In this document: positions 45,219-53,634 of the stretch, one piece after another | How positions within the stretch are numbered: the first letter of the stretch is position 1 | Layout: each line of letters begins with the position of its first letter | Source: Hyalangium gracile | GTDB lineage: Bacteria; Myxococcota; Myxococcia; Myxococcales; Myxococcaceae | Length of the DNA stretch: 64,000 bases | Assembly (NCBI RefSeq): GCF_020103725.1 | Contig: NZ_JAHXBG010000014.1 | Coordinates: 124,001 to 188,000 of the forward strand | Reading direction: 5' to 3' | The notes under the pieces: model-generated | The model's database searches: none | What the model was told of the DNA's origin: nothing | What the model saw: the letters and a program-made list of their open reading frames with translations, nothing else | Made by a program: the position numbers and the translations under genes

Positions 45219-46403
45219 ATGGGCGGATGGCATGGGGCGGAATGGAATTGGCGGGGCCTCCTCGCCGCGGTCCTATTGAGCGCGCCAGCACTGGCGCAGC
45301 AGCAGGTGGCGGAAGCGGAGGCGGACACCTCCTCCGAGGATCCCGTGGTGGCCACGGCCTCGACGGGGATCTCCACGGCTGGAATCTCCGCGGCTGGCGT
45401 CTCGGCGCCCGCGGTGCCCGCGCCTGGGGCTGCCGCCGAGGCCCCGGCCAAGAAGGAGAAGAAGAAGGCCAAGGCCGAGCCGCTGGGCGAGAACCCCGAC
45501 GCGGTGGACGACAACACGGAGGAGGAGCGCTCGCTGCGCGTCTTCGGCCGTGTCTTCGCGCGGGCCAGCGCGGACGGGCGTGAGGAGTACTCGCGCTCGC
45601 TGTCGCTGCCGTCGGCGCGCCTGGGCGTGCAGGCGGAGTTCGGCTACGTCGAGGCGGAGGTGACCGCGGACCTCTCGTCGAGGTCGATGCTCAAGGACGC
45701 CTTCGTCCGGCTCGCGGATGCCGACAAGCGCCTGCGGCTGTACGCCGGCCAGTTCAAGGCGCCCTTCCTGGCGCGCGAGCTGGAGTCCGCGTGGGACCTG
45801 CCGCTGATGCGCCGGGGCCTGGTGAACGACTACGTGACGGAGACGCACCAGCTGGGCGGCCGGCGGATGGGCCTCATGGGCGAGGTGCGGCTCAAGGAGA
45901 CGTGGAACCTGAAGGTGGCCGGCGGCCTGTTCGAGGGCGGCGAGGACGAGCTGGGCCAGCGCACCAGCGAGGACGCCTCGGCGCGCGTGTCCATGCGTCC
46001 CTTCAAGGCGCTCACGGTGGGCGCCAGCACCTACCTCACGCAGGTGATGGAGGGCACCCGGCAGTACGCGGTGGCGACGGATGGGACGCTGAAGCTGGGC
46101 GGGCTGGAGCTGACGGGTGAGCTCGTCACGGGCCAGCTGGGCGTCGGGCCCTTCACCGCGCAGCTCGGGCTGGCCAGCTACCTGCTGCCGCTCGGCAACG
46201 AGTGGGCGCTGCAGCCCGTCGCCGGCGCCGAGGCGATGCAGCTTCGTGGCGAGATGGCCGGGCGCGGCTGGGCGGCCGTGGGGGGCTTCAACCTCCTGTT
46301 CTCGGACACCTTCAAGGCGCAGCTGCAGGTCGAGCGCGCCCTGCGTCCGGGGGACGAGGGCCCGGGGACCGAGTACCTGCTGCAGCTCGCCACCCGCTTC
46401 TAG
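45219..46403 (+). CDS. porin-like outer-membrane beta-barrel (phosphate-porin type)
   Basis: A 394-aa exported protein with signal peptide (MGGWHGAEWNWRGLLAAVLLSAPALA). An Ala/Pro linker with a Lys-rich patch runs to about 95, then a beta-barrel begins at LRVFGRVFARASADGREE. Alternating amphipathic strands end in an aromatic C-terminus (LLQLATRF), the outer-membrane assembly signal. The order of strands resembles OprP/OprO phosphate-selective porins, as far as can be judged by eye. It is the first gene of a tight operon: the VTC-domain gene starts 16 nt downstream, so uptake of phosphate for polyphosphate synthesis is a reasonable guess. Confidence 0.8.
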   Translation: MGGWHGAEWNWRGLLAAVLLSAPALAQQQVAEAEADTSSEDPVVATASTGISTAGISAAGVSAPAVPAPGAAAEAPAKKEKKKAKAEPLGENPDAVDDNTEEERSLRVFGRVFARASADGREEYSRSLSLPSARLGVQAEFGYVEAEVTADLSSRSMLKDAFVRLADADKRLRLYAGQFKAPFLARELESAWDLPLMRRGLVNDYVTETHQLGGRRMGLMGEVRLKETWNLKVAGGLFEGGEDELGQRTSEDASARVSMRPFKALTVGASTYLTQVMEGTRQYAVATDGTLKLGGLELTGELVTGQLGVGPFTAQLGLASYLLPLGNEWALQPVAGAEAMQLRGEMAGRGWAAVGGFNLLFSDTFKAQLQVERALRPGDEGPGTEYLLQLATRF

Positions 46404-46419
46404 GCACGGAGATTCGACG

Positions 46420-47136
46420 ATGCTCTCGTTCGCCGAAGGAGAAGTCACCAAGCTCCGACGTGAGTTCAAGCTCGTGCTCGACGCGGAGGCCCTGGCGGAG
46501 CTGTGCGCACGACTGTCCGCGGAGCTGGGCGGGTACCTTCCTCCGCCCACGCGCATCGTGTCCGTCTACTTCGACAAGCCGGGCTTCCCGCTGGCCCAGC
46601 GCGCCATGCACACGCCGGAGGACTGCCTCAAGATCCGCACCAAGGAGTACTCGCCGGACCTGGGCGCCGCCGGAGTCGAGCGCGTGGTGCTGGAGGTGAA
46701 GCGCGAGCGCAACGGCGTGACGCAGAAGCGCCGGGTGTGGGTGCCCCGCGCGCAGCTGCGCGGCGTGATCCACCGGAGCGCGGGGCTGCTGCCGCTGATC
46801 GCGGGAGGCCGCCTGTTGCCGGTGCTGGCAGTGACTTATCGGCGCCACGTGTACCAGGCCACGCACGCCTGGCGGGTGACGGTGGACCGGGACATCGGCT
46901 TCCACCCCGTCACCCCGCAGCTGGCGCTGTCGGAAGAGACGCTCACCGCCGAGCGGCTGGGGCCGCCGCTGTTCACGGATCGGCGCGTGGTGGTCGAGGT
47001 GAAGCACCTGGGTGAGCAGCTGCCGGCGTGGCTGGCGACGCTGCACCCTGGTGGCAGGAAGCCGGCGTACAGCAAGTTCGCCGAGGGGATGGCGAGGGTT
47101 CACACCTTCGCCGCGGATGGGGTTCTTGGGGGTTAG
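46420..47136 (+). CDS. VTC-domain polyphosphate polymerase-like protein
   Basis: The VTC domain of yeast Vtc4 makes polyphosphate from ATP inside a beta-tunnel lined by basic residues. This 238-aa protein consists of that domain alone. Tunnel strands with alternating basic/acidic residues are visible: RREFKLVLD, IVSVYFDKPGF, LKIRTKEYS, VVLEVKRERNGVTQKRR, VTVDRDIGF and RRVVVEVKHLGEQ. It starts 16 nt after the porin gene; the kinase-repeat gene follows at 6 nt. There is no SPX domain or membrane helix, so anchoring may come from the DUF4956 protein. Confidence 0.85.
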   Translation: MLSFAEGEVTKLRREFKLVLDAEALAELCARLSAELGGYLPPPTRIVSVYFDKPGFPLAQRAMHTPEDCLKIRTKEYSPDLGAAGVERVVLEVKRERNGVTQKRRVWVPRAQLRGVIHRSAGLLPLIAGGRLLPVLAVTYRRHVYQATHAWRVTVDRDIGFHPVTPQLALSEETLTAERLGPPLFTDRRVVVEVKHLGEQLPAWLATLHPGGRKPAYSKFAEGMARVHTFAADGVLGG

Positions 47137-47142
47137 GGCACC

Positions 47143-48840
47143 GTGTTCATCGACTTCGAAGGCATCGACGGCAGCGGCAAGACAACGCTCTCCAACCTCC
47201 TGGCCGCGCGGCTGCGCCGGCTGGGCTACAAGGTGGCGCACGCGCGCGAGGGAGGCGAGCTGCAGGCACCCATCGCGCGGCGCATTCGCGAGCTGACGCG
47301 CGACTCGAAGCTGCTGGAGATGGGGGCGCGCACCGAGTTCTTCCTCAACGTGGCGCGGGACGCGCAGCAGCTCGAGGAGGTCATCGCGCCCGCGCTCTCG
47401 CGAGGCGAGGTGTGCATCAGCGATCGCTACCTGTACTCGCAGCTGGCGCTCAGCGGCGGGGGCCGCGGCCTGCCCATGGCGGAGCTGGAGCCCGTGTGCA
47501 ACCTGGCCTCGCACGGCATCTGGCCGGACCTCGTGGTGCTGGTGGACGTGGAGCCGGACCTGGCGCGGCTGCGCAAGCGGCTGGGCAAGCTCAAGGAGGG
47601 GCGCACCTCGGACAGCGACAGCCGCAAGGGGCTGGCGGGCGCGGGGCTCGCGGTGCGGGTGCGCGAGGCGTTCCTGGCCATGGCGCGCAAGGATCCGACG
47701 CGCTGGCTCATCATCGAGAACAATGATCAGCCGCTGTGGGTGCTCGAGCAGCGCATCGTGGACGCGGTGGTGGCGCGGCTGCAGGGGCGCGAGCCGCAGG
47801 TGCAGCGCATCGTCCCGCAGAGCGCCGCGACGGTTCCGAGCACCGTGACGGTGGACAGCGTGGAGGAGCGCTTCTTCCAGGGGCTGGACTCGCTGGAGGC
47901 GCGCGAGCCGGCCCTGGCGGTGTGGATGCTGGGAGGCCTGCCCGGACTGGCCGCGCACCAGCGGCGGCTGGCGGCCGTGGAGCGCTTCCCCGGGCTGGCC
48001 GTGCGCACCCTCGTGGGGCTGGAGGACGAGGCCTCGTGGGCGCTGCGCGAGCTGCTGGCGAAGGTGGTGCCGGTGGACGTGGCGGCGAGCCTCGGGACGA
48101 GCCCGTCTCCGCGTGCCATGGCGCTGCGCACCCACTTGTACGCCCAGGCGCCCGCGGAGGTGCTGGCGGGCCTCAAGCGCAACGACAGCGCTGCGGCCTG
48201 GGCCCTGCGCCAGCAGGCCCTGAGGGACCGGCGGCTGGGGGACGTGCTGCTGAGCCTGGCGGGCGTGGACGACGACACGGCGTGGTCCATCCGCGAGCTG
48301 GGCGTGCAGAAGAAGCTGTACTCGGAGGTGGCGCGCAGCCTCACGGGCCTGAGCGGCGAGCGTACGGATGCGCTGCGCGAGGCGCTCCTGAAGCACGATC
48401 GGCTCGCGGTGCTGCGCAGCGTCACCGGGCTGGACTCGCCGTTCGCCAACGGCCTGCGCGAGCAGCTGGCGGACAAGGCGATGAAGCTGGTGCTGCGCTC
48501 GCTCACCGGCCTCACCACGGACGAGGCCTTCGCGCTGCGCGAGCGGGGCGCCACCCTGACCAAGGAGGCCATCGACTCGCTGGACGGGCTGGATGAGCCC
48601 CGCGCCTGGGAGCTGCGCGAGGCCTTCGCGGAGCGCTGGCCGGCCACCGTGCTGTCCTCGCTCAAGGGGCTGCCGATGACGGCTCGGGCCGAGGCCCTCA
48701 TCACGCGCATCCTGAGCGCCGCGCCCGGCCGGCTGCCGCTGCTGCGCAACGCCTACTGCGTCATCGCCACGGCCCAGGAGGCCCCCGCGGAGCGGAGCGT
48801 GCGTCCGGTGGCCAGCGCCGAGTCCCAGGTCTCGCTCTAG
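47143..48840 (+). CDS. thymidylate-kinase-like domain fused to about nine helical repeats
   Basis: A 565-aa fusion. Residues 1-215 are a TMK-type P-loop kinase: IDFEGIDGSGKTTLS (Walker A 7-14), AREGGELQAPIARRIREL where TMKs have the REPGG segment, ISDRYLYSQLALSG (DR motif 94-96) and a lid RTSDSDSRKG. Residues about 265-545 are repeats of 26-28 aa with consensus SLxGLDxxxAWxLRE-x9-VL, at least eight clear. They look like alpha-helical solenoid units, not named HEAT or TPR. The GTG start is 6 nt after the VTC gene. Housekeeping TMKs are about 210 aa and unfused. Polyphosphate-dependent or nucleotide-dependent phosphorylation is inferred from context. Confidence 0.8.
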   Translation: MFIDFEGIDGSGKTTLSNLLAARLRRLGYKVAHAREGGELQAPIARRIRELTRDSKLLEMGARTEFFLNVARDAQQLEEVIAPALSRGEVCISDRYLYSQLALSGGGRGLPMAELEPVCNLASHGIWPDLVVLVDVEPDLARLRKRLGKLKEGRTSDSDSRKGLAGAGLAVRVREAFLAMARKDPTRWLIIENNDQPLWVLEQRIVDAVVARLQGREPQVQRIVPQSAATVPSTVTVDSVEERFFQGLDSLEAREPALAVWMLGGLPGLAAHQRRLAAVERFPGLAVRTLVGLEDEASWALRELLAKVVPVDVAASLGTSPSPRAMALRTHLYAQAPAEVLAGLKRNDSAAAWALRQQALRDRRLGDVLLSLAGVDDDTAWSIRELGVQKKLYSEVARSLTGLSGERTDALREALLKHDRLAVLRSVTGLDSPFANGLREQLADKAMKLVLRSLTGLTTDEAFALRERGATLTKEAIDSLDGLDEPRAWELREAFAERWPATVLSSLKGLPMTARAEALITRILSAAPGRLPLLRNAYCVIATAQEAPAERSVRPVASAESQVSL

Positions 48841-48849
48841 GAACGCGCC

Positions 48850-49554
48850 ATGGAGGCTACCTTCACGGGCATCTTCAGCGGGGTGGAAGAGGAGCTGACC
48901 ACCCTGCACATGGGCGCCATCGTGCCGCGGATGCTGGCGGCGGTGCTCATCGGCGCGGCGCTGTCGCTGAGGCCCTGGCGCCTGCTCATGGGCCGCGCCC
49001 TGCCCAAGTCGGAGATGATCCAGGCCCAGGTGCTGCTGTGCGCCGCGGCCGCCGTCATCACCGTCGTCATCGGCAACAGCGTGGCCAAGGCCTTCGGGCT
49101 GGTGGGCCTGGGCGGCTTCGTGCGCTTCCGCTCGGGGCTCAAGGATCCGCGCGACGCGGCGATCCTCTTCCTGGTGATCGGCCTGGGCATGGCCTGCGGG
49201 CACGGCAGCCTGGGGGTCGCGGCCGTGGGCACGGCGTTCGTCGCGGCGCTGCTGCTGGTCATGGATCTGGTCAACAAGGACGAGGAGAAGGCGCCCAAGC
49301 AGCGCATGGTGCTGTCGGCGCAGGCCGATGACCTGGTGGGGGCGGAGGCCTCGCTGCGCAAGGCGCTCAAGGAGCGCAACGTGATGGTGAAGGGCTGCGC
49401 GCTCGACTTCGACGGGCGCCGGCTGGAGTTGGAAGTGGAGGAGAAGGAACCCGGCTCGCTCGTCTCGGCGCTGAGCAAGACGGAGGGAGCGCCCCTGCGG
49501 GGGTTGAGGTGGACGGCGGTCAGCCCCAAGGGGGCACGGGAGGATCTGGTATGA
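48850..49554 (+). CDS. DUF4956-family membrane protein
   Basis: A 234-aa protein with three to four membrane helices in residues 25-140 and a cytoplasmic alpha/beta domain after 150. The motif VGLGGFVRFRSGLKDPRDAAILFLVIGLGMACG is the hallmark of DUF4956. Such proteins commonly sit beside VTC-domain genes (and CotH), and the same holds here. It may be the membrane platform of the polymerase. The ATG is 9 nt after the kinase-repeat stop, and its TGA overlaps the next ATG (ATGA). Confidence 0.88.
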   Translation: MEATFTGIFSGVEEELTTLHMGAIVPRMLAAVLIGAALSLRPWRLLMGRALPKSEMIQAQVLLCAAAAVITVVIGNSVAKAFGLVGLGGFVRFRSGLKDPRDAAILFLVIGLGMACGHGSLGVAAVGTAFVAALLLVMDLVNKDEEKAPKQRMVLSAQADDLVGAEASLRKALKERNVMVKGCALDFDGRRLELEVEEKEPGSLVSALSKTEGAPLRGLRWTAVSPKGAREDLV

Positions 49555-50267
49555 AGCGAGTGGTCGTGGCCGCGCTGGCGGCCGTGGTGTGGCTGGTGGG
49601 CTGTGGCGGAGGCGCGAGCCTGCCCACGGAGCCGGGACCTCAGAACCCGCAGCTGCCGGAGGAGCCCCTGCAGCCGGGCAATCCGAGCGGCGCCTCGACG
49701 CTCTGGCCTCTCACGCAGGGCTCGACGTGGACCTACCGCATCGATGATCCGCAGAAGGGCGTCTTCGACAAGCGCGTGGAGGTGGTCGGCCAGCAGACGG
49801 TGCCGGGCACGACGATGACGGCCACCGCGGTGCGCAGCGTCCAGCCGTATCTCGAGGAGCTGTCCTGGCAGGTCGAGCTCCAGAGCGGCCTGGTGGTGCG
49901 CCTGCGCGAGGAGGACCTCAAGGACGGCAAGGTCGTCCGGTCGACGACGTGGTCTCCCGCGACGGTGAAGTCGCTCGCGCAGCCCCAGAACGTCGGCTGG
50001 TCCTACTCGTCCTCCATCCAGGAGACCGTGCGGATGGACGACGGCACGGTGGATGAGAAGGACCGGACCTACGTGTGGCGCGTCGTCGCGGTGAATGAGA
50101 CGGTGGTCGTCCCCGCCGGCACCTTCACCAACGCCATCAAGGTCCTGCGCGATCGGCCCGACAAGGCGGGCAAGGAGCGCGTCTACTGGCTCGTGCCGGG
50201 CATCGGGAAGGTGAAGGAGGATGGCGAGCGGCTCGAGGAGCTCACCTCCTACGACGTGAGGAAGTAG
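49551..50267 (+). CDS. lipoprotein, last gene of the VTC operon
   Basis: A 238-aa lipoprotein: MKRVVVAALAAVVWLVGC gives the lipobox, and a Pro-rich linker follows. A beta-rich domain begins at LWPLTQGSTWTYRIDD and ends VYWLVPGIGKVKEDGERLEEL, a pattern seen in many DUF-type outer-membrane lipoproteins that fold like a shallow beta sandwich. The ATG overlaps the DUF4956 stop by four bases, which ties it to the operon. Function unknown. Confidence 0.82.
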   Translation: MKRVVVAALAAVVWLVGCGGGASLPTEPGPQNPQLPEEPLQPGNPSGASTLWPLTQGSTWTYRIDDPQKGVFDKRVEVVGQQTVPGTTMTATAVRSVQPYLEELSWQVELQSGLVVRLREEDLKDGKVVRSTTWSPATVKSLAQPQNVGWSYSSSIQETVRMDDGTVDEKDRTYVWRVVAVNETVVVPAGTFTNAIKVLRDRPDKAGKERVYWLVPGIGKVKEDGERLEELTSYDVRK

Positions 50268-50281
50268 CCAGCCAGGGGGGC

Positions 50282-50326
50282 GCGCTCCTGCGGGAGCGCT
50301 CCTCCCCTCGTACGCACGGCGAGGGG
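50282..50326 (+). terminator. two tandem hairpins closing the VTC operon
   Basis: GCGCTCC (50282-50288)/GGAGCGC (50293-50299) has a 4-nt loop, and CCCCTCG (50304-50310)/CGAGGGG (50320-50326) a 9-nt loop. Both stems are perfect 7-bp pairs starting 14 nt after the lipoprotein stop. GC-rich stems without a T-run are normal for this genome. Confidence 0.55.
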
Positions 50327-50397
50327 CCCGGCTGAATGGGGCCACGCCGTGAACAGTTGAGCCACCGGGCCCGGGATTGTCCGGGTCGGGAGGCTCC

Positions 50398-52014
50398 ATG
50401 CTTTTTTCGAAGTTACCCGCGCCAGGCGCCCTGCTGGCTGCCGCGCTCATGCTGACCGCGGGCGCGGCCCAGGCGGCGACCCTCACGCGTACTCCTTATC
50501 TGCAGCGCGTAGGCCCGGACACGGCAACGATCGCCTTCCGGCTGGACGCCAACTGCGCCGCCGAGGTGCGCTACGGCGCTCGAGGCGCCACGGATCAGGT
50601 GGCCCGCTCGACGGACAGTGGCCGCATCCACGCCGTGGTGCTCGAGGGCCTCACGCCGGGCACCGAGTACAGCTACGAGGTCAGCGCCTGTGGCGGCCGG
50701 ACGCCCATCAAGAGCTTCAGCACCGCCCCGGTCCCGGGGACGCGGTATGTGCACTTCGCGGCCGTGGGAGACTTCGGCACCGGTGGCAATGACGAGAAGC
50801 GGGTCGCCGCCGCCATGCGCGCCGCGCAGCCCGAGCTGTTCATCGCGCTCGGAGACAATGCCTACACGTCCGGCACCGAGGCGGAGATCCAGAACAACCT
50901 CTTCGCGCCCCTGGCGGAGGTGCTCGCCGAGGTGCCCTTCTTCCCCGTGGCCGGCAACCACGAGTACGTCACCAACCAGTCGCAGCCGTACCTGGACAAC
51001 TTCTACCTGCCCACCAGCCCCAGCGGCGGCGAGCGCTACTACTCCTTCGACTGGGGCCACGTGCACTTCGTCGGGCTGGACTCCAGCTGCGCCATCGGCC
51101 TGGCCTCGAAGGAGCGCTGCACGCTTGCGGCGCAGAAGGCCTGGCTGCAGCAGGATCTGGCCGCGAGCAAGGCCCCCTGGAAGGTCGTCTACTTCCACCA
51201 CCCACCCTGGTCGAGCGGCTCTCACGGCTCCCAGCTCCTCATGCGCCGCGAGTTCGGCCCCCTCTTCGAGCAGTACGGGGTGGATCTCGTCCTGACGGGG
51301 CATGACCACAACTACGAGCGCAGCAAGCCCATGCTCGGGGATGCGGTCGCCCCCACGGGCAAGAAGGGCATCCCCTACCTCGTGGTCGGCGGCGGCGGCG
51401 CGAGCCTGCGCGCCTTCAGCGGGGGGGCGCCGGCCTGGAGCGCCTACCGCAACGCCACCGCGCACGGCTTCCTGGACGTCGTGGTCGATGGAGGAACCCT
51501 CACCGCGAAGCTCCTGGGGACCGACGGCAAGACGCTGGACTCCCTCACCCTGAAGAAGGAGCTCGCGCCGCAGGAGCCTCCACCCACCCTGAGCGTGATC
51601 GTGGAGGGTGAGCGGGGCACGGCTCCGCTCCAGGCCTTCTTCCGCGCCACGCCCCCCTCCGCCGACTACACCGTCCGCTGGGACTTCGGGGATGGACAGA
51701 GCGCCGAGGGCACCGAGGTGCGGCACGTCTACGCCCAGCCGGGCGATTACACGGTGACGGCCACCGCCACGTCCGGGGCCTCGAGCGTCACCACCACGAA
51801 GCAGGTCTCCGTCTCGGCGCAGGGGACCGTGGAGACGCCCGGTGAGCCCGTGACGGAGGTGCCTCAGACTCCCGGCTCCCCGGGTGTCTCGCCTGGCCTG
51901 CCGGGCGAGGACGATGCGTCCCCCAGCGCGGGCTGCTCGACCGTGCCTCCGGGCGCCCTCCTCCCGTTCGCCGCGCTGACGCTGGCCGCGCTGCTGCGGC
52001 GCCGTCGACGCTGA
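50398..52014 (+). CDS. secreted purple-acid-phosphatase-like enzyme with PKD domain and MYXO-CTERM tail
   Basis: A 538-aa protein from ATG 50398 (GGAGG four bases upstream) with signal peptide ending AAQA. An FN3-like N-terminal domain (TPYLQRVGPDTATIAFRL) is followed by a metallophosphoesterase with all metal motifs: GDFG, GDNAY, GNHEY, HHPPW and GHDHNYER. A PKD domain (DYTVRWDFGDGQSAEG ... PGDYTVTATA) comes next. The last 30 residues are AGCS, a hydrophobic helix and RRRRR: the MYXO-CTERM sorting signal, cut by myxosortase and probably surface-linked. Phosphatase action on external phosphoesters would supply phosphate, in keeping with the preceding operon. Confidence 0.9.
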   Translation: MLFSKLPAPGALLAAALMLTAGAAQAATLTRTPYLQRVGPDTATIAFRLDANCAAEVRYGARGATDQVARSTDSGRIHAVVLEGLTPGTEYSYEVSACGGRTPIKSFSTAPVPGTRYVHFAAVGDFGTGGNDEKRVAAAMRAAQPELFIALGDNAYTSGTEAEIQNNLFAPLAEVLAEVPFFPVAGNHEYVTNQSQPYLDNFYLPTSPSGGERYYSFDWGHVHFVGLDSSCAIGLASKERCTLAAQKAWLQQDLAASKAPWKVVYFHHPPWSSGSHGSQLLMRREFGPLFEQYGVDLVLTGHDHNYERSKPMLGDAVAPTGKKGIPYLVVGGGGASLRAFSGGAPAWSAYRNATAHGFLDVVVDGGTLTAKLLGTDGKTLDSLTLKKELAPQEPPPTLSVIVEGERGTAPLQAFFRATPPSADYTVRWDFGDGQSAEGTEVRHVYAQPGDYTVTATATSGASSVTTTKQVSVSAQGTVETPGEPVTEVPQTPGSPGVSPGLPGEDDASPSAGCSTVPPGALLPFAALTLAALLRRRRR

Positions 52015-52173
52015 GCCGGACTCCCGGCTCCCCCCGGCCAGGGGCAGGCTCCGCTCTGGAGGTGTCCAGGGAACCCCACCCTGGCCCTTCTCCGCGCTTG
52101 CCACGGGGCTGCCGGGATGCGATGGGCGCCTGCACCGCAGGTTCCCCTCCCTCCCGGGGCCCTGGAGCCCGCC

Positions 52174-53634
52174 ATGAAACGATCCGACCGTCAGGCCTCG
52201 AAGAAGTCGCCCTCGAAGAAGTCGCCCTCGAAGAACAAACCCTCCGCGAAGCCCTCGCGCCCGAAAGACTCCGCCGAGCGGGGCTCTCGCGAGAGCGCCC
52301 GGGCCCACAGCATGCGCCCGCTGCGTGAGGACCTCGTCCTCCAGGCCAGCCTCGAGGCCTACGGCATGGTGCGCCACGAGGGCCGCCTGTCCGATCGGGC
52401 GCTCGACTTCACCCTGCGGCGCAAGGCGCACCTGTACTCGACCGAGCGTCGCGCCGTCGCGGAGCGCGTCTACGCCCTGCTGCGCCGCCAGCGCACGGTG
52501 GACTATCTGCTCTCCCACGCGCGCCCCGGCTTCGAGCAGCTGCAGACCACCCGGCAGGACGTGCTGCGGCTGGCCGCCTCGCGCATCCTCCACGGCGAGG
52601 CCGCGCGGCAGGTGGCCCGGGACTCCGCGCTGACGGGCGCGGATGCCGCGGCGCTGGACGCCCTGCCGGAGGCGGCCGCCGCGCTGGACTCGCTGCCCGC
52701 GAACCAGCGCTTCCCCCTGGCGGCCTCCCTGCCCGACTTCCTGGCGGAGAAGTTCCGGGAGACCTTCGGCGAGGACGCCGAGCGCGCCGCCGAGGCGATG
52801 AACGAGCGCGCTCCCCTGACCGCCCGCGTCAACCTGCTCAAGACCACGCGCGAGGCCCTGCTGGAGCGCCTGAAGGCCGAGGGCGTCGAGTGCCAGCCCA
52901 CGCCGCTGTCCCCCATGGGCGTGTGGCTGGAGACGCGCGTCAACGCCTTCTCGCTGGAGAGCTTCCGGGAGGGGCTCTTCGAGCTGCAGGACGAGGGCAG
53001 CCAGCTGCTCGGCATGCTGGTGGACGCGCCGCCCACGCGGGTGGTGGATGCCTGCGCGGGCGCGGGCGGCAAGACGCTGCAGCTCGCCGCGCAGATGAAG
53101 AACCGGGGCGATCTGCACGCGCTGGACGTGGATGAGGGCCGCATCGACGAGCTGCGCAAGCGCGCCCGCCGCGACGGCGTCCACAACGTCCGCACCCAGG
53201 TCATCCCGCCCGAGGGCCCCACCGCGGACGAGGCCCTGGTACCGCTGAAGGACAAGGCGGACCGGGTGCTGGTGGACGCCCCGTGCAGCGGCACCGGCAC
53301 CTACCGCCGCAAGCCAGACGCGCGCTACCGGCTGGGGCCCGACGAGCTGGCGAACCACGTGGCCCGGCAGAAGGCGCTGCTGGAGCGCTTCTCCACCCTG
53401 GTGAAGCCGGGCGGCCGGCTCATCTACGGCACGTGCAGCATCCTCAGGGAGGAGAACGAGGCGGTGGTGGAGGACTTCCTGGCGCGCCACCCGGACTTCT
53501 CCGTGCGCCCGGTGACGGAGGAGCTGGGCCCGGAGCTGGGGGCGAAGGTGAGCCGTGGCCCCTTCCTGCGGCTGGCCCCTCATCTGCACGGGACGGACGG
53601 GTTCTTCGGGGCCATCCTGGTCCGGGCGAAGTAG
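52174..53634 (+). CDS. RsmB-like 16S rRNA cytosine-C5 methyltransferase
   Basis: A 486-aa RsmB/NOL1-type m5C methyltransferase. The NusB-like N-terminal helical domain (about 55-190) precedes the Rossmann core: VVDACAGAGGKTLQLA (SAM), LDVDEGRIDEL, VLVDAPCSGTGT (catalytic Cys) and IYGTCSILREENEAVV (second Cys). ATG 52174 has GGAG six bases upstream. The first 45 residues are a Lys/Ser/Pro-rich, disordered basic tail encoded partly by a 15-bp tandem repeat. It might methylate C967 of 16S rRNA as in E. coli; the target is not certain. Confidence 0.88.
   Translation: MKRSDRQASKKSPSKKSPSKNKPSAKPSRPKDSAERGSRESARAHSMRPLREDLVLQASLEAYGMVRHEGRLSDRALDFTLRRKAHLYSTERRAVAERVYALLRRQRTVDYLLSHARPGFEQLQTTRQDVLRLAASRILHGEAARQVARDSALTGADAAALDALPEAAAALDSLPANQRFPLAASLPDFLAEKFRETFGEDAERAAEAMNERAPLTARVNLLKTTREALLERLKAEGVECQPTPLSPMGVWLETRVNAFSLESFREGLFELQDEGSQLLGMLVDAPPTRVVDACAGAGGKTLQLAAQMKNRGDLHALDVDEGRIDELRKRARRDGVHNVRTQVIPPEGPTADEALVPLKDKADRVLVDAPCSGTGTYRRKPDARYRLGPDELANHVARQKALLERFSTLVKPGGRLIYGTCSILREENEAVVEDFLARHPDFSVRPVTEELGPELGAKVSRGPFLRLAPHLHGTDGFFGAILVRAK
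52198..52235. repeat. 15-bp tandem duplication inside the RsmB-like gene
   Basis: TCGAAGAAGTCGCCC occurs twice in direct succession (52198-52212, 52213-52227), with an 8-base start of a third copy to 52235. It encodes KKSPS units in the basic head and keeps the frame, so copy number could change by slippage without breaking the gene. Confidence 0.8.

Follow-up and report, generated by a model that had tools for sequence, protein, structure and literature searches.

What is a thymidylate kinase (TMK) that seems unable to read thymine doing beside a polyphosphate-polymerase-like protein, what would its acceptor be, and why should the two be tied together? The question is raised by five genes in the window, our term for the whole 64,000-nucleotide stretch of DNA analysed here (C14:124001-188000 of the 11.7 Mb genome of Hyalangium gracile, Myxococcota). 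All on the + strand, they encode an OprO/OprP-like outer-membrane porin-like protein of 394 residues with a signal-like N-terminus (45219..46403); a VTC-domain protein of 238 residues, polyphosphate-polymerase-like (46420..47136; PF09359); a protein of 565 residues, with a GTG start, in which a diverged thymidylate-kinase-fold domain (residues ~1-215; PF02223) is followed by a linker and a tail of 27-residue two-helix repeats (~237-546) (47143..48840); a DUF4956 membrane protein of 234 residues (48850..49554; PF16316); and a lipoprotein of 238 residues with a lipobox-like LVGC, weakly DUF3108-like (49551..50267). An earlier note on this DNA had described a five-gene operon, and the layout bears it out: successive distances are 16, 6 and 9 nucleotides (nt), and the DUF4956 and lipoprotein genes overlap by 4 nt. 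The third product is termed here the TMK-repeat protein.

The operon is real and conserved, a form of the CotH-VTC-DUF4956 cassette absent from the papers we searched, and it carries a repurposed thymidylate-kinase paralogue. Tentatively, at a probability of roughly 0.45, we read it as a cell-envelope polyphosphate system to which a kinase of a non-thymidine acceptor has been added. The CotH, VTC and DUF4956 families co-occur in distant organisms; the only mutants found in the open literature are those of one streptococcus, where, in the available text of the source, the trio is seen with Pel genes and nowhere else (PMC12345266). In myxobacteria the operons offer a PelG-free setting, two natural versions within a single genome, and a kinase as an extra member. 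No paper on a TMK-repeat fusion was found in the open literature, subscription papers and preprints lying outside the search; no open paper was found that pairs 'VTC domain' with 'DUF4956', and 'thymidylate kinase' with 'CotH' returned only unrelated papers.

Two operon types in Myxococcota

Six full-length TMK-repeat proteins were made into a profile, which was searched against 195 Myxococcota genomes. Its scores are bimodal, ordinary TMKs lower and TMK-repeat proteins higher, with nothing in the gap from 91.6 to 224.7 bits; the upper group comprises 98 rows representing 97 genes (one is split over two contigs) in 75 of the 195 genomes. Sixty retrieved regions, together with the window and loci L009, L010 and L011, were annotated with profiles made from the operon's own proteins. 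L059, which is the same contig as L009, was excluded, leaving 63 distinct loci out of 64; these comprise L010, from the Planctomycetota, and 62 of the 97 TMK-repeat genes found in Myxococcota.

VTC, porin, TMK-repeat and DUF4956 genes lie together on one strand in 59 of the 63 loci, a recurrence that makes the operon more than a product of chance. Thirty-eight loci have the window's order, porin-VTC-TMK-repeat-DUF4956 (type A), and 19 the order VTC-porin-TMK-repeat-DUF4956 (type B); two appear as porin-VTC-DUF4956-TMK-repeat, possibly an artefact, order having been set by open-frame midpoints. The types also keep different company. Counted anywhere in the retrieved stretch, and in some cases on the other strand, the lipoprotein is found in 33 type A loci but in only 2 of the 19 of type B, CotH in 4 of type A and all 19 of type B, and a homologue of the phosphatase encoded downstream in the window in 32 of type A. 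The idea that the five genes stay together in relatives therefore holds for the core four, and for the lipoprotein largely within type A. Porin-profile matches are present in 60 of the 63 loci. The four loci outside the core pattern are L010, which lacks a porin-profile match; L083, where the kinase is alone; and L094 and L101, whose genomes have VTC elsewhere (L161 and L160, respectively).

Spacing is also maintained. With start codons chosen by rule, and with L059 still included, the median gap is 6 nt from VTC to kinase (42 loci) and 5 nt from kinase to DUF4956 (63 loci), and the lipoprotein gene starts at -4 or -1 nt relative to DUF4956 in all 35 loci measured. The nearest named relative found, Hyalangium versicolor, has a kinase 88% identical to that of the window.

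The window genome, in which there are two VTC genes and seven CotH matches, holds both types: at C4 it has a type B operon reading CotH-VTC-porin-TMK-repeat-DUF4956. Between the types, median identity falls from 40% for the kinase through 37% for DUF4956 and 27% for the porin to 21% for VTC. The earlier note had the kinase sitting in the place usually taken by CotH. The window operon does lack CotH, but the presence of both types in this genome, the second with CotH and TMK-repeat genes in one operon, means that the kinase is not a CotH substitute. The Planctomycetota locus L010 (6505-11885) argues likewise: VTC, TMK-repeat and DUF4956 are followed there by four tandem CotH genes, and then by a gene that is porin-like by eye, with no Pfam porin match. 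A CotH-replacement role was rejected on these two grounds. Spread beyond Myxococcota was sampled by one scan of named genomes, which yielded four loci; the CotH, VTC and DUF4956 profiles all match in both control genomes, those of Corynebacterium glutamicum and Methanosarcina acetivorans, and a VTC search of plasmids gave no match.

How closely the kinase depends on VTC, and VTC on the kinase, can be seen from genomes that have only one of them. VTC (E<=1e-6) is present in 92 of the 195 genomes, including 69 of the 75 with a TMK-repeat gene; kinase and VTC co-occur with Fisher p ~3e-25, relatedness uncorrected. For four of the remaining six, G031, G032, G039 and G125, the operon-derived profile finds VTC next to the kinase, and G078, whose TMK-repeat match begins at base 15 of its contig, has no VTC at E<=1e-6; G157 is discussed below. 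Of the 195 genomes, exactly the 75 with the kinase also have the repeat tail (E<=1e-6), and none of the 23 that have VTC only does. VTC-only loci were retrieved from 21 of these 23 (G151 and G181 were left out). Across the 26 retrieved VTC loci that have no adjoining kinase, two of them split type B operons, DUF4956 comes directly after VTC in 17 by script, and in 18 when L151, judged by eye, is added; several have CotH or porin-profile matches upstream, some of the CotH matches being weak. VTC and DUF4956 therefore look like the constant core, to which some of the Myxococcota have added the kinase. The VTC tree has two switches between the states with and without kinase, a weak result from a quick tree with long branches. 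One relative has a third VTC gene with no TMK-repeat adjoining (L162, G100:C4:298500-313500); this gene lies ~2 kb from a homologue of the operon lipoprotein, which is on the other strand.

A diverged kinase, its tail and its partners

The kinase domain of the window protein matches Thymidylate_kin (PF02223) over residues 5-196 (E=3.2e-25; 89.3 bits, cut-off 27), and its model superimposes on Thermus TMK with ADP and TMP at Z 23.1 and a root-mean-square deviation (rmsd) of 1.7 A over 179 residues; among the matches listed in the structure comparisons, the best 50 each, all are TMKs. Sixty-three TMK-repeat domains were aligned with canonical TMKs of the same phylum, of which 25 of 28 were retained; L119, L125 and L130, poor fragments, were excluded from the final alignment, all three having been in one earlier alignment and in the TMK identity and tree run, and at least two in another. 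The first kinase-domain alignments also included L059.

The catalytic motifs are kept. The earlier note had seen intact Walker A and DR motifs, and both are there to be read in the window protein, as GIDGSGKTT and D94-R95; the Walker A residues Lys13 and Thr14, with Asp94 and Arg95, are kept in 63 of 63 TMK-repeat domains. It is the base-reading pocket that has changed. In Mycobacterium tuberculosis TMK, Arg74 hydrogen-bonds the thymine ring and Phe70 stacks on it, according to the available part of PMC3619541. With residues placed by the F-x-x-x-R spacing and by alignment to Thermus TMK, the probable equivalent of Arg74 is Arg in 25/25 canonical TMKs and Asp or Glu in 63/63 TMK-repeat domains, while the stacking aromatic, Phe or Tyr in 25/25 canonical TMKs, is Asn in 40, Tyr in 22 and Leu in 1. 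The canonical YQ (25/25) is altered in all 63; the lid has been rebuilt, with RKGL in 62/63 and Gly166 and Gly168 in 63/63; and the invariant Arg72 and Gln75, both new, adjoin the old thymine pocket. Basic residues are strongly kept, R72, R95 and R172 in 63/63 and R108, R161, K162 and R174 in 62/63. TMK-repeat proteins form one side of a tree against canonical TMKs, with a Shimodaira-Hasegawa-like approximate likelihood ratio (SH-aLRT) of 99; the same branch has support 0 in the run that included the three poor rows, and this too is a quick tree with long branches. From the pattern of kept and replaced residues we infer an active kinase whose acceptor would be something other than thymidine, and rather anionic.

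The window genome has another, canonical TMK, and the TMK-repeat protein is accordingly neither the organism's only dTMP kinase, an outcome the earlier note had set against its own proposal, nor its sole TMK-family protein. As a separate observation, the Walker A Lys is replaced by Thr in 22 of the 25 canonical Myxococcota TMKs, as in GAGTTTQ of one such gene (L001 1456-2118), and TMK-repeat proteins keep the Lys. An anti-phage role was considered: PADLOC gave two matches (E 1.2e-7 and 5.8e-7), both confined to the kinase domain, and PHROGs matched two thymidylate-kinase families.

The domain could still be a nucleotide kinase, of other base specificity (UMP, CMP, or dTMP after all), supplying envelope polymers. 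Its TMK fold and its score over the dTMP-kinase equivalog cut-off are what such an enzyme would have, and a related Gram-positive cassette sits in Pel polysaccharide loci (PMC7112168, available part). We nonetheless find this unlikely: the stacking aromatic is Asn or Leu in 41/63, the base-reading Arg acidic and YQ changed in every one of the 63, a canonical TMK is at hand, no PelG match was obtained, and by Pfam none of the five operon genes is a sugar-nucleotide gene.

The earlier note had instead conceived of a PPK2-like step from polyphosphate to nucleotide. The kinase would then shuttle phosphate between the two and regain ATP or GTP from VTC's polymer. PPK2, like TMK, is of the P-loop kinase fold; the operon shared with a polyphosphate-polymerase-like protein fits, and the conserved basic residues of the kinase and the arginine ladder of its tail, described below, would suit a polyanion. 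This proposal has been weakened by the closeness to TMKs in the structure comparisons already given, by the lack of any PF03976 match at E<=1 in the kinase, and by the presence of a PPK2 (262 bits) at C2, away from the operon. In its strict form we regard it as improbable; the altered thymine pocket does leave room for some polyphosphate-related substrate.

The tail has its strongest autocorrelation, over lags 10-69, at a period of 27 (z 5.3). Modelled alone by AlphaFold2 it forms 11 helix pairs, with a mean predicted local distance difference test score (pLDDT) of 91 and a predicted template modelling score (pTM) of 0.84. When this model was aligned with VIA-align, ranks 1-32 were proteasome chains (Z 13.1-15.6, rmsd 4.3-5.4 A, 315 residues at best); some of these rows name PSMD2/RPN1, and the other proteasome chains we take to be Rpn1 or Rpn2. 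Other solenoids among the matches listed have rmsd 6.4 to 20.2 A. Because proteasome chains come top and at lower rmsd, the model suggests a closed ring resembling the Rpn1/Rpn2 toroid, bearing in mind that helical repeats score high by nature. Foldseek gave no match to the model at E<=0.001, no PC-repeat Pfam match was found in the TMK-repeat protein, and the best hit of the repeat profile in a PDB sequence search had E=0.26. Through the tail runs a ladder of arginines, R275, R302, R329, R356, R384, R412, R439, R466 and R492, spaced 26-28 residues apart; seven are present in 63/63 loci, R275 in 62 and R329 in 61. HEAT repeats have a conserved Asp-Arg ladder that is structural, and we do not therefore count the arginines as proof of polyanion binding: a structural role of this kind and a polyanion track are both possible.

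So well conserved a solenoid, with its seven invariant arginines, would also befit a protein whose kinase domain serves regulation, as a scaffold or a switch that binds ATP, with ATP altering the solenoid's hold on VTC and DUF4956. The occurrence of VTC without kinase in 23 genomes is as expected of an accessory regulator, and a VTC-CotH locus of Clostridium perfringens also has a HEAT-repeat protein (PMC2879425, available part). A pure scaffold would have no need of the P-loop Lys, the DR pair and the basic lid residues, all of which are kept, and we give this explanation little weight.

The window VTC domain is recognized by PF09359 (E=1.4e-17; 64.4 bits, cut-off 23), and a profile of 5 VTC relatives matches yeast Vtc4 (3g3q) at E=6.6e-7. 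Residues in common with Vtc4 are YFD, LR, ExK, KxR, YxR, RxxxD, ExK and SKF, several of which line the polymerase tunnel of Vtc4. By hydropathy the protein is mostly soluble, with one marginal segment (121-139). That the domain performs some other phosphate transfer, like other triphosphate-tunnel enzymes, is doubtful: a weak CYTH match beside VTC (E=0.19), the VTC identity of just 21% between types A and B, and the fact that no assay of a cassette VTC protein was found among the open papers listed would allow it, but the domain scores far better with the VTC model than with CYTH, and Vtc4 is the best solved match and has the residues in common.

The remaining partners are less sharply defined. 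DUF4956 matches PF16316 (E=3.2e-11; 43.7 bits, cut-off 30.6), with an MgtC match below cut-off (E=0.0065), and has hydrophobic segments within 16-141 and a polar C-terminal part. The window porin matches Porin_O_P (PF07396) at E=0.0069, its 16.1 bits being below the cut-off of 20.9, which the type B porin exceeds (24.1 bits); a PDB sequence search with the porin profile gave no match. The DUF3108-like match of the lipoprotein is below cut-off. A crude lipobox pattern is found in 33/37 lipoproteins and 18/30 CotH proteins, and is too rough to put every CotH outside the cell.

Weighing the polyphosphate reading

In the reading we favour, a cell-envelope polyphosphate system with an added kinase, VTC would polymerise polyphosphate from ATP on the cytoplasmic side of the inner membrane. 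DUF4956 would be its membrane partner and the likeliest membrane route, and would do here what the membrane portion does for eukaryotic VTC. The TMK-repeat protein would be a cytosolic P-loop kinase, derived from thymidylate kinase with loss of the thymine pocket, that phosphorylates some other acceptor, probably an anionic one; its solenoid, which may close into a ring, could dock the kinase onto the polymerase or its product. Porin, lipoprotein, phosphatase and, in type B, CotH would deal with phosphate or product outside. The link with polyphosphate comes from family identity; the kinase substrate, the export step and the purpose of the whole are proposals.

Several findings weigh against this reading. 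The kinase is dispensable for VTC, 23 of the 195 genomes having VTC without it. Conversely, G157 keeps an open TMK-repeat gene (L083 5609-7726) with no VTC match at E<=1e-6, which speaks against a strict requirement for VTC. The L083 kinase stands without VTC, DUF4956 or porin and has lost the lid motif RKGL; its downstream neighbour is a homologue (E=9e-129) of the RsmB-like gene that lies downstream of the window operon, and L083 may on this account be a remnant left after the other operon genes were lost. The kinase domain passes the dTMP-kinase equivalog TIGR00041 (NCBIfam) with 98.4 bits against a cut-off of 83.25, a profile from which the label 'dTMP kinase' may mislead. The type B DUF4956 falls under the Pfam cut-off (27.4 against 30.6 bits), and the window genome is already supplied with two PPK1 and one PPK2.

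The Streptococcus intermedius mutants also belong here. In the available text of PMC12345266, none of the four accessory mutants stopped making Pel; there was more of it after deletion of SIR_1592 and less after that of SIR_1594 (CotH), aggregation being reduced in both, and for SIR_1593, which is the VTC gene, nothing comparable is told. Effects of SIR_1592 and CotH, with none told for VTC, fit poorly with a simple line from VTC to export by DUF4956. SIR_1592 is described there as an MgtC membrane part of four transmembrane segments plus an ACT domain; the hydropathy of the window DUF4956, a hydrophobic part and then a polar end, resembles this description, and SIR_1592 is probably a DUF4956 protein.

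A bolder version of the polyphosphate reading is a long shot, but can be stated: an envelope machine that would make polyphosphate inside and export it, the ring with its arginines gripping or threading the growing chain and the kinase capping, priming or phosphorylating it. DUF4956 would then conduct polyphosphate out, and the exported chain could be a phosphate store or donor for partners such as a CotH-type kinase, since outside the cell such a kinase would find no ATP.

Downstream genes and known systems

Beyond the operon, 109 nt downstream as measured to the first possible start, lies the gene for a purple-acid-phosphatase-like secreted protein (50377..52014, + strand), a conserved neighbour that is possibly linked. 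A secreted phosphatase had been noted earlier at this place, and Metallophos (E=8.6e-20), PKD and MYXO-CTERM domains confirm it. Tandem hairpins had also been noted 3' of the operon. They do fold, but no better than chance (z=-0.99; 30 of 200 shuffled sequences fold equally well or better), and no T run directly follows them; they were rejected as a signal. Just downstream of the phosphatase gene is an rRNA methyltransferase gene (52117-53634) that we take to be RsmB-like; its homologues are present in 3 of 8 loci searched (L060, L076 and L083).

Several known systems and enzyme families bear comparison. With thymidylate kinases (TIGR00041, PF02223) the window kinase shares fold, Walker A and DR; it differs in its replaced thymine pocket and lid, its long helical-repeat tail and its co-residence with a canonical TMK. 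With PPK2 (PF03976) it has in common the P-loop kinase superfamily and a polyphosphate setting, but no sequence match, and a PPK2 is encoded separately in the genome. The tail is like the PC-repeat toroid of proteasome Rpn1/Rpn2 in its ~11 helix pairs and top VIA-align ranks, and unlike it in being ~10% identical, with no Foldseek match at E<=0.001 and no PC-repeat Pfam match.

Vtc4 carries SPX and a fused transmembrane part. The eukaryotic VTC complex (Vtc4, PDB 3g3q; 7ytj, 8i6v) and the window protein have in common a VTC domain with conserved residues; here there is no SPX and no fused membrane part, and DUF4956, the putative partner, is a separate gene. Eukaryotic VTC couples polyphosphate synthesis with translocation, as the available part of PMC9911596 has it. 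The C. perfringens NELoc-2 locus likewise combines VTC, CotH and a HEAT-repeat protein; in the available text of PMC2879425 the HEAT protein has its own gene, with no kinase fusion, and a glycosyltransferase gene is present.

The closest counterpart is the Gram-positive Pel-locus cassette. In streptococci, clostridia and bifidobacteria, pel genes come with CotH, DUF4956 and a poly-phosphate polymerase (PMC7112168, available part), and the authors of PMC12345266 state, in the text available, that the arrangement of CotH, VTC and DUF4956 was not found outside Pel loci. In the window genome PelG (PF16933) has no match at E<=0.001, other pel genes not having been searched, and in its type B operon CotH, VTC and DUF4956 stand together, porin and kinase separating VTC from DUF4956. 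VTC and DUF4956 are together in both settings, with CotH as well in type B and in L010; the myxobacterial operons differ in the added TMK-repeat kinase and porin, and the window copy in having, instead of CotH, a lipoprotein and a phosphatase neighbour.

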